From contig JAFLCD010000010.1 of NCBI GenBank assembly GCA_017302715.1, positions 1-64,000 of the forward strand: 64,000 nucleotides of DNA, in the 5' to 3' direction. The notes beneath the pieces are model-generated. The model had not been told where the DNA came from. It saw only the letters and a list, made by a program, of their open reading frames with translations, and did not search any database. Source of the DNA: Deltaproteobacteria bacterium. Lineage in GTDB: Bacteria; Bdellovibrionota; UBA2394. A program made the translations under genes and the position numbers. This document shows positions 41,131-47,064 of the stretch, in pieces (position 1 is the stretch's first letter; every line of letters starts with the position of its first letter).

Positions 41131-41589
41131 CTAGCGAACAGCGCAGACGGCACGAACGGTCTGACAAGCAGTAGAGATTTTGCCGATGTCTGAATCTGAA
41201 GGATAAGAAATTTTGCTGATCGCTGCTTTTTCGCAGGCGATATTTCCTTCTCTTGTTATTACCTTGCAGTCTGCTGTGATTTGAGCCTTAGCGCGATTTA
41301 CAGCATTTACGATTTGGTCAGCGCTTGGATAACTTAAATAAGATAGATTCTGTTTCAGATGTTCAACATCGACAGTCATCGTGATGGTAAGTCCGTCTAA
41401 ATTATTTTGATTCTGACAGTTGTCTTGAAGCATTTCATCGATCATATCGAGTTTGTATTCGATGCGATCGAGTTGAGAATAGTTTCGCGTATCTTTTCGT
41501 TCCATATTACGTCTATTCGATTGTGCTGATAAATTTTGCGTACTCGCTAAAGTAGCAATCGCCGCGGTTAAAATAAAAAATACTTTCAT
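41131..41589 (-). CDS. small exported cysteine-containing protein
   Basis: 152 residues with a clear signal peptide (about 1-22, MKVFFILTAAIATLASTQNL). The mature part has a helical segment (LDRIEYKLDMIDEMLQ) and two short related blocks, YPSADQIVNAV and YPSDSDIGKIS, with about five Cys likely in disulphides. It follows the flagellin-like cluster on minus but is separated by a 9-bp-stem hairpin and about 110 bp, so it may be transcribed separately. Confidence 0.75.
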   Translation of the reverse strand: MKVFFILTAAIATLASTQNLSAQSNRRNMERKDTRNYSQLDRIEYKLDMIDEMLQDNCQNQNNLDGLTITMTVDVEHLKQNLSYLSYPSADQIVNAVNRAKAQITADCKVITREGNIACEKAAISKISYPSDSDIGKISTACQTVRAVCAVR

Positions 41590-41699: not shown

Positions 41700-42512
41700 T
41701 TATTGAGGAGGAGATGCCTGAACGATAAGACTTACTGAAGCCAATCGCAGCCGTAAATCATCTAGAGCGGATTTAAGATAGAAATAGGCTTCTTGAGATG
41801 CATCCAAAGTTCCTATGCTAATGTTGAATACACTTTTTTCTTCTAAAGAAACTTTTTCGCCATTCATTTCAAAAGATTTTTCTGACCACAAAAGAAGTTT
41901 TGATTTTTGCGAGGGGACTGCATTTACGCCCGTTTGATAAGAAATTGAATTGATAGCATCTACAGCTTCTTCAGCTGAGAATCGATTGAGAAAAATTCTT
42001 GCTCCGTTCAATTGAATCTCAGTGTTTTGATCGGAAGAAAGAAAAAATTCTTTTTTTGCAATTTGGCCAAAACTTCTGTCTGTAATCGGCTCTATTTTAT
42101 ACTTCATGGGGATTTCTTCTCCACCCATCGTCGACTGACTTAAGCTGGTAAACTCCAATCCGTCTTTTAAATAAAAGTATTGCTTTCGAAAGGAATCTTG
42201 AAAATCCGTTTGGTTTATAAGGCGTTTTATATCATCTAGAAAAAAAGATTTTTCTGAATTCAAATAATTTCGATCGGTAGCTCCCATGGTAGGGTTACTT
42301 GCTAGTTGAGCAAGCTCTCGTACTCGAACGAGATAATTGGTTATCATCTGAAGATTTTGGCTCGCTTCTATTCCAATGGCTCGAGCCTCATCGTTGCTGA
42401 AACGAACAAGTTCACTCTGTTCTGAAAAAGCATTTGAATTTTTAAAAAAAACAAAAAAAATAAATAAAATTAAAAAACTTTTTCTCATAAATAATTCTTC
42501 TTTCAAATTCAT
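41700..42512 (-). CDS. Sec-exported flagellin-like protein 2
   Basis: 270 residues from the ATG that overlaps the upstream stop (ATGA at 42509-42512); an ATG at 42488 (MRKSFLIL) is an alternative. A hydrophobic signal (about 11-28) precedes SEQSELVRFSNDEARAIGIE. Residues 50-105 match the flagellin N-terminal D1 helix: LQMITNYLVRVRELAQLAS, then ATDRNYLNSE and INQTDF. Residues 165-208 resemble the flagellin hook IN motif (IQLNGARIFL...AINSISYQTGVNA). The C-terminal helix (DASQEAYFYLKSALDDLRLR) matches the flagellin C-terminal D1. Both D0 ends are missing. Confidence 0.75.
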   Translation of the reverse strand: MNLKEELFMRKSFLILFIFFVFFKNSNAFSEQSELVRFSNDEARAIGIEASQNLQMITNYLVRVRELAQLASNPTMGATDRNYLNSEKSFFLDDIKRLINQTDFQDSFRKQYFYLKDGLEFTSLSQSTMGGEEIPMKYKIEPITDRSFGQIAKKEFFLSSDQNTEIQLNGARIFLNRFSAEEAVDAINSISYQTGVNAVPSQKSKLLLWSEKSFEMNGEKVSLEEKSVFNISIGTLDASQEAYFYLKSALDDLRLRLASVSLIVQASPPQ

Positions 42513-43681
42513 CGTGGAGGACAATTTCCTAAAATGGGAGTTATTTGACTACGATGCAAATGAGTTTGCATAATAGCTGCATCTAGTTGGGCTAATGCCC
42601 AACTAGCTTTTGTTTGCGTAGAAATTTCTGTCTTAAGAATATTTTGCTGGTTACGCTCTATTATTCGTTCTTCAGAGAGGTCAAAAAGAGACGAGTTTAT
42701 CTTCAACTTAAAAGGGCTTGAAGATCGGAGTTTAAATTTTCCAAAAAATGTTTGTTTTCCCGCATTGATTTTTCCACCAAATATCTTCGAGGCTTCAGGA
42801 GTGAGGAAGAAACTGATATTTCGTCCATCGGCAGCTGTCAGTAAAATATTTTCTGTCGATCCTATTGCTAAACTCGCCTTAACGGCTGTCGAGCTTGAAA
42901 TAAAATTAATAGCCGATATGAAGTTAGGCAAAGTACTAACGTTACCCGTGATAGATACTCCATTAATTTTGAATTCACCTGCTTTCAGTGATTGATTGGA
43001 ATTTCCAGTAAAGTTTAAATTCTTAAACTCCACTTCTGTAGGTCGTACCTCGCTGTAGACTTGAGTGAAGCTAGCTTGAGCATTAATACGCTTCGCAATA
43101 GCAATTGAGCTGACAAGATTTCCATCTACAGAAATCGTATCTTCGTTGGCTGTAGGTGCTTCAATAAGAATGTCGTTGAGCAAAAAATTTCCAAATGAGT
43201 AAGAATTATCTTTAGGCTCAATTGTAAGAAAAATTTCAGCAAGACTTCCCATAATGCTTAAATCGAAAGGTTCTATTCTATAATTAATCGGAACATTCAC
43301 TTGATCGATCGCTGAATGGCGTAAAGTTCTAAATTGAAGCCCGTCTTTAAAAAAAGCGTAAGTGTCGCCAAATGTATCTGTAAATGAAGCGCGTGTAATA
43401 AGTTCAAAAATCTCTTCATTTTTTTTGGCGTATGTAATTTGTAAAAATTGACGATCAGCCGTTCCCAAGGTGCTGTTGGCAGCTTGAATAGCGAGTTCTC
43501 TTTGATGGTTAAGGATTTCAGTTAAACGAATCAGGATCCGTTCCGCCTTTTCGCCAATAGCGTTGGCTTCTTGGCAGGTAAAGCGTAGTTCGGCTTGGGT
43601 TGCCGCTGAGGTTGCTTCACTTAAAGTTAGATTGATTAAGCAAAGGAACACAAAAATTTTGAGTTTAGAAATAAATTTCAT
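42509..43681 (-). CDS. Sec-exported flagellin-like protein 1
   Basis: 390 residues with signal peptide (about 1-26, KIFVFLCLINLTLSEATSA). Flagellin D1-like N-helix at 36-104: AERILIRLTEILNHQRELAI, then QAANSTLGTADRQFLQ and ELITRASF, closely paralleling RMRELAVQAANGT...DR of flagellins. Two hook-IN-like repeats at about 165-215 and 233-290 (AGEFKINGVSITGNVSTLPN, then LLTAADGRNISF). The C-terminal D1-like helix is QTKASWALAQLDAAIMQTHL. The canonical D0 ends and the type III export signal are absent. Lies between the FliD-like gene (10-bp gap) and its smaller homologue. Confidence 0.78.
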   Translation of the reverse strand: MKFISKLKIFVFLCLINLTLSEATSAATQAELRFTCQEANAIGEKAERILIRLTEILNHQRELAIQAANSTLGTADRQFLQITYAKKNEEIFELITRASFTDTFGDTYAFFKDGLQFRTLRHSAIDQVNVPINYRIEPFDLSIMGSLAEIFLTIEPKDNSYSFGNFLLNDILIEAPTANEDTISVDGNLVSSIAIAKRINAQASFTQVYSEVRPTEVEFKNLNFTGNSNQSLKAGEFKINGVSITGNVSTLPNFISAINFISSSTAVKASLAIGSTENILLTAADGRNISFFLTPEASKIFGGKINAGKQTFFGKFKLRSSSPFKLKINSSLFDLSEERIIERNQQNILKTEISTQTKASWALAQLDAAIMQTHLHRSQITPILGNCPPR

Positions 43682-43691
43682 AGATATCCTT

Positions 43692-45392
43692 TCAATGTGA
43701 GCTTTCTGACTGAAGTCTGTTTTCTATCTGAATGATTTGAGTATTAAGTCTGTAAATTCTAAGTGGAAGGCTGCCGTTCGATGGATCCACCATCTTAAGC
43801 AGTACGTTATCAAAGCCTTTTGCAAAACCTCTGTTGTCATTTTTGCCTTCAAAAAATATTCGAAGATCGTCATAGGATTCTGTTAAAATCAAATTAAGTT
43901 TTGCTTCATCTTTTAAACTGAGCAGTCCTCGTCTGTCGGAATCGGTAAAAATTCCTAATTCTGATAAAGATTTGATACGGCTATCATTCGAGTAAATATC
44001 CGTAACAGAAGTTGTAAGCTGCCATAGAATATCAACAAGAAGTGAATCTCCAGCCATTAAATTGGGTATATTTTTTTTCTCAACTTCGTAGCCAATTGTT
44101 TTCTGAATCCATGTGATGATTGAATTATATTTCTTAATCAAATCTTTTAATTTTGTGACTGCGCTTTGAGTGCCACTCTCAGTCACTGAAATGGTCTTTA
44201 AATCACCTGGATCTGCAGAGTGAAGTGTCAGTTTTACTCCTGGAATGAAATCAGAAATTTCATTGCTATCTCGATAAATGGAATTGCTGCCAACAATAAT
44301 TAAAGAATCTTGTCCTTGAGTTTGAACAGAAAAATTTGCAGCACTTAAATGAGTAAGCGTACTCAATTCAAATTGAAAATTCGGATGCCAAATGGAGTTG
44401 TCTGGATCTCGCTGGCCGCTACGTTTGTCAGTGATTATAAGCCGCGCCGACATATCCCCACCAGCGCCTGTATCGAACACAGTGGCTTGAATTTCTTTGG
44501 AAGACGAATTCAAAATTTCAGCAAAACCTAAGAGGCTCGTGCCTTTAGGGATATCAAAAACGTTTTTATGCCCGCGAATTTGGATCGTAAATTCGGCATC
44601 TGTCTCCGTGACACTTTCATTTACTCCTGAGAAGCGAGCTGCCCAGACTTCGTTTGTCGCCAATCGTTCTACACTTAGTGTAAAAATAGAATTCAGTGCT
44701 TTGGAATTCGCAGTGCCCATTACAACATTTGGATCAGAGCTCGATACCACCTTTGCTTTGAGATCATCTGTATTTAAAAATTGATATAAATTTCCTCTGA
44801 AATTTCCAAGCTGTTGATAAAGATCTGTTAAGATGGCTACTTGCGTAGCTAATTTCATTCGTAAAATTTCTAAATCTTTAGTGCTTTTTTGAGCGAGTGG
44901 AGAGGGTTGAAACGTATTTTTCAGTTCAATTTCGCTCAGATGAAGACTGATGACATAGTCGTCATCTTGATAGCCGGCCATACGTAATAGCTCATGAAAA
45001 ATGTGTTTAGAGAGTGGGCGATTGTCTCGAAGATAGATATCCCAACGCTCTTGAATAAGCCAAAGCTTGTCATCTTGGATGACGGAATCAATTTTCGAGC
45101 CGCCGTTATCTACGTCTTTATTTTTTTTATCGCTGGCTGAAACAACTTTAATTTTTTGAATCGTCAGTTGCTTGGTTAAAAGACTGAGATCCAAATTGAA
45201 TCGATTGATAATATTTTTACCTTCGGGTGTTGAAGAAAGATAATCGAGAACTTTCAATCCTGTTTCAATAAAAGTGCGGCGAATTTCATCTCCGCCGTTT
45301 CCAACGCCGTGTCCAGGGATTGGAGCGTCTTCTTGGGCAAAGATTGGACTCAAGCCTAAACTTAGAATGAGAATAAAAAATATTTTCTTCAT
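43692..45392 (-). CDS. Sec-exported FliD-like (filament cap) protein with extra N-terminal domain
   Basis: 566 residues from the ATG overlapping the regulator stop (ATGA). Signal peptide 1-19. Residues 25-160 form a domain with GVGNGGDEIRR, DNGGSKID and HELLRMAGYQ. From about 180, FliD features follow: QLGNFRGNLYQFLNTDDLKA then KVVSSSDPNVVMGTA, EISDFIPGVKLTLHSADPG (about 378), KLKDLIKKYNSIITWI (414-429), MAGDSLL (446), SLSELGIFTD and SLKDEAKLNLIL, and a final helix RIYRLNTQIIQIENRL. It stops there, lacking the D0 tail of true FliD. Confidence 0.8.
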   Translation of the reverse strand: MKKIFFILILSLGLSPIFAQEDAPIPGHGVGNGGDEIRRTFIETGLKVLDYLSSTPEGKNIINRFNLDLSLLTKQLTIQKIKVVSASDKKNKDVDNGGSKIDSVIQDDKLWLIQERWDIYLRDNRPLSKHIFHELLRMAGYQDDDYVISLHLSEIELKNTFQPSPLAQKSTKDLEILRMKLATQVAILTDLYQQLGNFRGNLYQFLNTDDLKAKVVSSSDPNVVMGTANSKALNSIFTLSVERLATNEVWAARFSGVNESVTETDAEFTIQIRGHKNVFDIPKGTSLLGFAEILNSSSKEIQATVFDTGAGGDMSARLIITDKRSGQRDPDNSIWHPNFQFELSTLTHLSAANFSVQTQGQDSLIIVGSNSIYRDSNEISDFIPGVKLTLHSADPGDLKTISVTESGTQSAVTKLKDLIKKYNSIITWIQKTIGYEVEKKNIPNLMAGDSLLVDILWQLTTSVTDIYSNDSRIKSLSELGIFTDSDRRGLLSLKDEAKLNLILTESYDDLRIFFEGKNDNRGFAKGFDNVLLKMVDPSNGSLPLRIYRLNTQIIQIENRLQSESSH

Positions 45393-46168
45393 TTTTGAGC
45401 TGCCTTCTTTTCTGTAGAAAAATTGAGAGGAAAAATTTGTATGCAAAGTTTGAAAACTTCTTCGGCTTCTTTTGTTTCAGCGATCTTGCAAATTTTCTCA
45501 CGAAAATCTCTTACAAGCTGACGAATACGATTGAGATTTTTTGGATTCATTCGAAAAGTGAGGGAGGTGAAATCTCGAGCTTGAAGTGGATGATTTTCAA
45601 GTGATTTTTGAGCGAGTTCCAAAGATTCAAAATGGCTTCTTAAAATACTTTCGTCTGAAATCCCGTCAGAAGAGTGATAGCTTTTGCCAGTTGCCTTCCA
45701 TTGAAGTTTAGAAATCTTTTCAGCCAGTCCTAATCGTTGAAGTCTTTCGAGCGAACGTAAAACTTCGCCTTCGGAGATATGGAGAGATGTGGCTATTTTT
45801 CGAGGTATTCCTTTTAAGCGCTCTACTTCTAAGAGAGATAAGATCGCGAAGTGCTGCCAGCTTGAGATAAGAGCAAACTCATCGGCTTTGAGAATTTGAT
45901 ATTTAAGCGGCAAATGAGAAGTTTCATTATTGAAAATATTTTCTATAAAGCGGCTTTGGTTTTCGTCCCGCAGTCTTTCAATAACTCGATTGGCGAGTTT
46001 GGTAGAAACGGCTCTCTTTCCTCGGATAATTTCTGAAACAGCAGAAGGAGTCAGTCCGATTCGTTTTGAAAAGGCCCTGAGAGAGTAGCGAGTATTCTTA
46101 TTTTTTGCTGAAGAAAGTGCCGTTTGAAGCAAACGTTGAAACTGATGCTGATTTATCTTCCCCTTCAT
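45389..46168 (-). CDS. TIGR02147-family transcriptional regulator
   Basis: 259 residues: N-terminal helix-turn-helix (RAFSKRIGLTPSAVSEIIRG, about 27-46), then the TIGR02147/DUF4423 region with a second winged-helix segment IATSLHISEGEVLRSLERLQ and the closing LTFRMNPKNLNRIRQLVRDF then REKICKIAE, a hallmark of the family. Known mainly from Bdellovibrio-like bacteria and Fibrobacteres. The gene is coupled by ATGA to the FliD-like gene, so it probably controls the cluster, perhaps through the upstream palindrome. Confidence 0.88.
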   Translation of the reverse strand: MKGKINQHQFQRLLQTALSSAKNKNTRYSLRAFSKRIGLTPSAVSEIIRGKRAVSTKLANRVIERLRDENQSRFIENIFNNETSHLPLKYQILKADEFALISSWQHFAILSLLEVERLKGIPRKIATSLHISEGEVLRSLERLQRLGLAEKISKLQWKATGKSYHSSDGISDESILRSHFESLELAQKSLENHPLQARDFTSLTFRMNPKNLNRIRQLVRDFREKICKIAETKEAEEVFKLCIQIFPLNFSTEKKAAQK

Positions 46169-46208: not shown

Positions 46209-46244
46209 TTTTTGGAACATTTTGTTCCAAAAATAAATGGAACA
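46209..46244. promoter_or_regulatory. palindromic operator upstream of the TIGR02147 regulator
   Basis: TTTTTGGAAC, 5-nt centre, GTTCCAAAAA (46209-46233): 10-bp perfect arms. A further half-site GGAACA is at 46239-46244. It sits 41 bp upstream of the regulator ATG. No T run follows on minus, so an operator fits better than a terminator. Confidence 0.55.
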
Positions 46245-46251
46245 TCTGTTT

Positions 46252-47064
46252 TTATTTACTTTTCAAAATCTTTTGAACCGCAGGAACCGCTGAGATTAAA
46301 TAAACAATACCAATAAAAACCAAACAAATGGTCGCGGTGGTCACATAAGTAGAGGCGAGATTTTCTCGAGAGAATCCGAATTCGAGATGTAGGCGATTCA
46401 TATCGCCGTTGGTGTCTTCTTCTCCGCCCCATATTGTGCCCCAGGGAATCAATGCTTCGGATCGATAAATATGAAGCCAAAGCATAAAGCTCTGCCAAAA
46501 ACTAATCACACTCCAAGGCACCACAATAAATCTGAGCAGGGGCCAATAAGTCGGAGTAGGAATATGAACACTAAACGCTGCGATAAAAATCGAAGATAAA
46601 ATAAATTCTCCGCCAACACCTCCGTAGACCATCGACATTTCCCAAGCTTGGTGACTGGCGATAAAAGTATAAAAGCATTGAGCGATGAAGAGAGCTGCAG
46701 CGATAAAAATAAGATAAGGCGATTTATATCGATAACCTTGCACGCCGATCACGCCGATTAAAAAAAGAGCGCAGAGATAAGTAAAGATGGATTTGTCTAA
46801 ACTCATCGGAGCAAATCCTAAAAGAGGAATGGAAGCGCGGCCACTCAGCCATGCAAAAAGAGAATGGCCGATTTCATGAAACCAATGTCCAAAACCAAAG
46901 CTGAGCCATCGAATAAGGCCCGAGCTTTCGGTGATCGCTGCCAATAGAAAGCATCCCGGTAAAAACAAAATTTTAAGCCATGGATTTTGAGAGAACTGAT
47001 CAAAAGGCGAGTCTGGATTCGAAAAATTGTCAGAATTCGCATCGTTTTCAAGAAAATCATTCAC
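46252..47064 (-). CDS. polytopic membrane protein with HEIGH motif, M50-like
   Basis: 270 residues with about seven membrane helices and a zinc-protease-like motif HEIGH at about residue 63 (GHWFHEIGHSLFAWLSGRAS) on the second helix. Resembles M50 peptidases but I do not see the NPDG-type second motif, so catalysis is uncertain. Divergent from the exported FAD oxidoreductase by 62 bp. Confidence 0.7.
   Translation of the reverse strand: MNDFLENDANSDNFSNPDSPFDQFSQNPWLKILFLPGCFLLAAITESSGLIRWLSFGFGHWFHEIGHSLFAWLSGRASIPLLGFAPMSLDKSIFTYLCALFLIGVIGVQGYRYKSPYLIFIAAALFIAQCFYTFIASHQAWEMSMVYGGVGGEFILSSIFIAAFSVHIPTPTYWPLLRFIVVPWSVISFWQSFMLWLHIYRSEALIPWGTIWGGEEDTNGDMNRLHLEFGFSRENLASTYVTTATICLVFIGIVYLISAVPAVQKILKSK

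Follow-up and report, generated by a model that had tools for sequence, protein, structure and literature searches.

The window, a 64,000-nucleotide stretch of a contig from a member of the Bdellovibrionota (genome G000), carries an operon in the order TIGR02147/DUF4423 regulator, FliD-like fusion protein and two flagellins that bear Sec-type signals and lack D0 (Table 1). The fusion begins with an ATG codon and consists of a Sec-type signal peptide, expected to be cleaved after IFA, an N-terminal domain (N-domain) and the D1, D2 and D3 domains of a FliD filament cap. Pfam placed FliD_N at residues 174-247 (profile positions 23-96 of 97; 29.6 bits, cut-off 24.8) and FliD_C at residues 360-562 (profile positions 1-208 of 236; 113.3 bits, cut-off 25.4; E 1.6e-32), and residues 1-173 returned zero Pfam matches. 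The same genome encodes its own complete FliD (492 aa, contig C12). Aligned with it, the body of the fusion spans FliD residues ~25-446, so that ~25 N-terminal and 46 C-terminal amino acids, D0 at both ends, are missing. The AlphaFold2 model of the fusion was confident (mean pLDDT 87.6), and a fold search with the whole fusion returned FliD structures such as E. coli FliD D1-D2-D3 (5h5v; TM 0.72, normalized by target length). From residue 33 the N-domain forms a separate alpha/beta fold in the model, also predicted confidently.

Table 1. Positions of the operon genes, the domains of the FliD-like fusion and the candidate operator in the window.
Feature	Position	Strand	Basis or sequence
Flagellin 2, exported, D0-less, 262 aa, shorter, without cysteine pair	41700..42488	-	
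Flagellin 1, exported, D0-less, 390 aa, one cysteine at each cut end (Cys36, Cys387)	42509..43681	-	
FliD-like fusion, exported, 566 aa: signal peptide, N-domain and FliD D1-D2-D3 without D0	43692..45392	-	
FliD D1 C-terminal part, residues 406-562, ending before D0	43707..44177	-	FliD_C profile; stop at own-FliD residue 446 of 492
FliD D2-D3 (outer head), residues 206-405	44178..44777	-	54% identity to own FliD, groups with own FliD
FliD D1 N-terminal helix remnant, residues 165-205	44778..44900	-	model helix; 15% identity to own FliD
N-domain, residues 21-165, GNGGD ... HELLR ... Y..S	44898..45332	-	profile matches and separate fold in model
Sec-type signal peptide, residues 1-20	45333..45392	-	MKKIFFILILSLGLSPIFA
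TIGR02147/DUF4423 HTH regulator, first operon gene, 4-nt overlap with fusion gene	45389..46168	-	
Candidate operator TGTTCC-N10-GGAACA-N3-TGTTCC, upstream of regulator	46214..46244	.	

A sequence-only reading of this gene had described a FliD-like cap fused to an extra N-terminal domain and truncated before the D0 tail. Much of that description held. The motifs GNGGD, DNGGSKID and HELLRMAGYQ lie where it had placed them (residues 31-35, 95-102 and 133-142), and the segment that carries them is indeed a domain of its own, foreign to FliD: the search that the reading had proposed, for this domain alone in other exported proteins, found it without FliD elsewhere in the phylum. The FliD part does stop ahead of the C-terminal D0, with IENRL at residues 556-560. 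A frameshift concealing a D0 tail was rejected; the D0 gap is real because the next gene, with its own signal peptide, starts 10 nt past the stop codon and no FliD-like frame lies downstream. The relative in G002, a genome from another genus, likewise stops ahead of D0 with the next gene directly behind. What the reading had overlooked were the Sec-type signal in residues 1-20, the loss of the N-terminal D0 and the two adjoining flagellin-like genes. The domain is thus extra to FliD as claimed, but a working cap is unlikely, since a Sec-type signal replaces the D0 and flagellar export region at the N-terminus, the C-terminal D0 is gone and the operon continues with D0-less exported flagellins. 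True caps have no signal peptide and leave by flagellar export, whereas the copies in both G000 and G002 have a signal-peptide-like start, and the fusion gene sits outside the flagellar gene cluster.

Both downstream genes encode flagellins with D1 and the outer-domain fold, the fold judged from a structural model for the first gene only, and alignment with the genome's own FliCs showed that the D0 helices are absent at both ends. Flagellin 1 matched the NCBIfam flagellin model over residues 42-380 (E 8.5e-16); its structural model (pLDDT 88.6) retrieved flagellin folds, with bacterial cell-surface flagellin (2zbi, 3k8v) among the best matches. Flagellin 2 matched the same model with E 1e-08, covered Flagellin_N profile positions 57-130 below the cut-off and grouped in the tree with the second copy of G002. 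A cysteine at the point where an N-terminal D0 would stop and another at the C-terminal end occur in four stand-alone copies (G000 first, G002 first and second, and G003), whereas 13 of 14 true flagellin sequences have no cysteine at all. In the flagellin 1 model the pair lies at the start and end of the D1 helices (36-67 and 356-386), and apparently it forms a disulfide across the cut ends that stands in for D0.

The family of the window's genome was represented by five genomes, all of which encode exported D0-less flagellins, seven in total. A profile built from D1 of the exported copies scored these seven at 145-169 bits and found none outside the family among 192 phylum genomes, the next match (65 bits) being an ordinary flagellin. 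The four-gene order of the operon is identical in G002. In G001 and G004, the N-domain known from the FliD-like fusion is followed by a flagellin body in one protein, again downstream of a TIGR02147 gene, and in G003 the exported flagellin stands alone, without N-domain. Additionally, exported proteins comprising barely more than FliD D2-D3 (233-254 residues) are encoded in G000, G001 and G004. Searching a genome collection with the whole fusion gave zero relatives.

The first operon gene belongs to the TIGR02147 family (121.1 bits, cut-off 50; PF14394 128.4 bits, cut-off 30). The palindrome GGAACA-N3-TGTTCC occurs once per genome in G000 and G002, both times upstream of the operon regulator and accompanied by a third half-site; the window contains a single spaced TGTTCC-N(6-12)-GGAACA where 0.01 would be expected. 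In G001 the single copy of GGAACA-N3-TGTTCC lies at the start of a different TIGR02147 gene. Judging from this placement, the palindrome is probably the regulator's operator. Two neighboring genes were considered as operon or system members and set aside. G002 has a different gene upstream of the regulator in place of 46252-47064 (-), which encodes a membrane protein with a HEIGH motif, possibly a site-2-type peptidase; the exported 152-aa protein after the operon (41131-41589, -) is unmatched in the remaining four genomes of the family.

The N-domain belongs to a wider set of exported proteins. Its profile matched proteins of varied length in 49 of 144 phylum genomes, and outside the window's family the domain is joined to many different C-terminal regions. 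A TIGR02147 gene lay within 3 kb of all 45 sampled loci (44 within 1 kb), despite only 0-23 DUF4423 genes per genome; in 31 loci it immediately preceded the N-domain gene in the same orientation, usually overlapping it by 4 nt. The conserved core comprises GNGGD, a Trp, HE and then Y..S; residues 21-165 of the fusion had no significant match in Pfam or NCBIfam. As the sequence-only reading had noted, HELLR is not a full HExxH zinc motif; most relatives have HE.L(R/G), and an HExxH metallopeptidase was rejected for lack of that motif. HE(L/F)(A/G)H proteins also neighbor TIGR02147 genes (L150:4846-5814, L155:599-1312, L167:4449-5285 and L042:4206-5180), including one from the genome of the window, but the N-domain shares no profile similarity with them and is not their degenerate form. 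A scan of the genome collection with three N-domains gave 14 loci, labeled Bdellovibrionales, Bdellovibrionaceae, Bdellovibrio, Bacteriovorax, Bacteriovoracaceae or Bdellovibrionota, with one record of Lysobacteraceae. One further protein joins the N-domain to apparent ankyrin repeats beside a divergent TIGR02147 gene (L083:4200-5483). Many other TIGR02147 genes of the phylum (L158-L166, L152) precede exported proteins with a G-rich start, e.g. GNGGD, after the signal peptide, in which the N-domain profile match is absent or weak.

The ancestry of the exported proteins is mosaic. In the tree of flagellin D1 plus linker, every exported copy fell on one side of a branch with 97/97 support, in line with an insertion after D1N that the exported flagellins have in common and FliC lacks; grouping this part of flagellin 1 with its own FliCs was rejected (p 6e-12). 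The outer domain of flagellin 1 lies inside the FliCs of its own genome (support 100/99), and for the outer domains a single group of all exported flagellins was not rejected (p 0.2). For FliD D2-D3, each exported copy went with its own FliD and a group of exported copies was rejected (p 0.0026); for the C-terminal part of FliD D1, their common origin was not rejected (p 0.45). Conservation is inverted as well. Between genomes, true flagellins are 67% identical in D1N but 35% in the outer domain; for flagellin 1 against its own FliC the order is reversed, with 35% in D1N and 53% in the outer domain. Likewise, exported FliDs and their own FliDs are 54-58% identical in D2-D3 and 9-15% in D1N. 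Overall, the inner parts (D0/D1) have strongly diverged, and the outer domains are often nearest to the cell's own flagellum, with tracking weak or absent in the second flagellins and in G003 and G004. Substitutions have saturated the four-fold sites, yet the first two codon positions stay conserved, which shows that the genes are old and have been kept by selection and rules out both a recent duplication and decay of the genes.

Textbooks treat flagellin and FliD as assembly proteins. Their D0 makes up the packing of the filament core and contains the region for flagellar export, and a FliD cap needs it at both ends to insert into the filament. The fusion resembles FliD (HAP2) in the sequence and fold of D1-D2-D3 but differs in lacking D0 at either end, in its Sec-type signal and N-domain, and in its place outside the flagellar cluster. 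The two downstream proteins share D1 and outer domains with FliC and depart from it in the missing D0, the Sec-type signal and the shared insertion; stand-alone copies other than flagellin 2 add the cysteine pair. Cell-surface flagellins (PDB 2zbi, 3k8v and 3k8w), alginate-binding flagellins of Sphingomonas, have the same fold and lie on the cell surface, but to our knowledge D0 loss with Sec export has not been described for them. Flagellinolysins still polymerize and carry an HExxH peptidase within their central variable region (PMC5595980). A foreign domain is joined to a flagellar filament protein there as here, but our N-domain is N-terminal, takes the place of D0 and lacks HExxH. Flagellins with complete D0/D1 ends and propeller-type FG-GAP repeats as variable region also occur, two of them in the window's own genome (L206:803-2677, Pfam FG-GAP_3, E 1.9e-40; L207:1231-3201) and others at L210, L211, L212, L213 and L215. 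Released vesicles that carry the real receptor bind phages as decoys (review PMC12474301). The mode of action proposed below is alike in relying on released receptor copies but differs in that dedicated copies, predicted not to polymerize, are encoded. For a counterpart of this arrangement, or for flagellins with signal peptides or without D0, we found no description in open-licence papers.

We are highly confident of the anatomy. On this basis we provided a putative mechanism. The local TIGR02147-type regulator, probably acting through GGAACA-N3-TGTTCC, would control one FliD-like and two flagellin-like proteins. Because all three carry Sec-type signals and have lost D0, they would arrive in the periplasm or outside the cell folded and unable to polymerize. 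The cap protein would carry the GNGG-HExLR domain in place of D0, and stand-alone flagellins would instead hold their cut ends by a disulfide. Outer domains that stay resident-like are what would be expected if whatever recognizes the flagellar tip or shaft must recognize the copies too, and the likeliest use would be as a decoy toward flagellum-recognizing agents, such as phages that adsorb to flagella. That these proteins are exported, non-polymerizing imitations of the surface of the resident flagellum, or decoys, we consider possible at somewhat short of an even chance. The complete proposal, a dedicated and regulated cap-and-filament mimic set with inner parts swapped for a new domain or a disulfide and outer surfaces matched to the resident flagellum for use as decoys, is more doubtful.

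Several features would favor mimicry: the loss of D0 at both ends with predicted Sec-type signals in all members, the operon and palindrome in a second genus, the restriction of the seven D0-less exported flagellins to the family, where all five genomes have them, the D2-D3-only exported proteins of three genomes, the outer-domain tracking, the inverted conservation, the codon pattern and the cysteine pairs of four copies. Against it stand the unevenness of the tracking and the outer-domain group of exported flagellins that was not rejected; gene conversion by the resident genes long ago could also account for the tracking, with no selection for mimicry. Moreover, D1 is retained beyond the needs of a bare decoy, and neither the FliD-like protein nor flagellin 1 matched any phage or defence family. 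Flagellar domains may instead have been re-used for binding at the cell surface, as adhesins or receptors, with the N-domain as an anchor or partner-binding module. Cell-surface flagellin is among the top fold matches of flagellin 1, and other exported proteins combine the N-domain with a wide range of C-terminal regions. However, we saw no lipobox or other anchor in the exported proteins of the operon, and binding by itself accounts neither for outer domains that follow the resident flagellum nor for the inclusion of a cap head, so we regard re-use as adhesins as unlikely, though deserving real weight.

The proteins could also be accessory parts that attach to the native filament or to its cap from the periplasm or a sheath lumen, e.g. 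in a sheathed flagellum. Cap and filament homologues do co-occur, and the part of the FliD copy that is best kept is the cap head, formed by D2-D3. Filament compatibility of FliD resides in the terminal coiled coil (PMC8533109), and this coiled coil has lost its ends here, which argues against a working cap; the packing regions of D1 are also the most diverged, and docking on the flagellum is in our view quite unlikely. We find it improbable that the exported protein informs the regulator, whose gene immediately precedes its own, about export or about the flagellum. The constant presence of a TIGR02147 gene near the N-domain speaks for such a sensing pair, yet the two partners should occupy different compartments, and sensing explains the pairing but not the flagellar bodies. 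Lost D0 and strongly diverged D1 might suggest functionless, decaying duplicates of flagellar genes. Almost no credence is left for decay, since the frames are open, signal peptides and operon are kept between genera, the fold models of the fusion and flagellin 1 are confident and the codon pattern already contradicts it.

If the mimic reading is correct, the operon would offer an initial way into the large family in which a regulator is paired with an exported protein (TIGR02147 with GNGG-HExLR), for which we found no description; nor did we find a paper describing TIGR02147 in the open-licence literature. Receptor mimicry by dedicated bacterial proteins would become testable. These cells would maintain look-alikes of the flagellum for their own sake, exported by another route and without the part that serves assembly.
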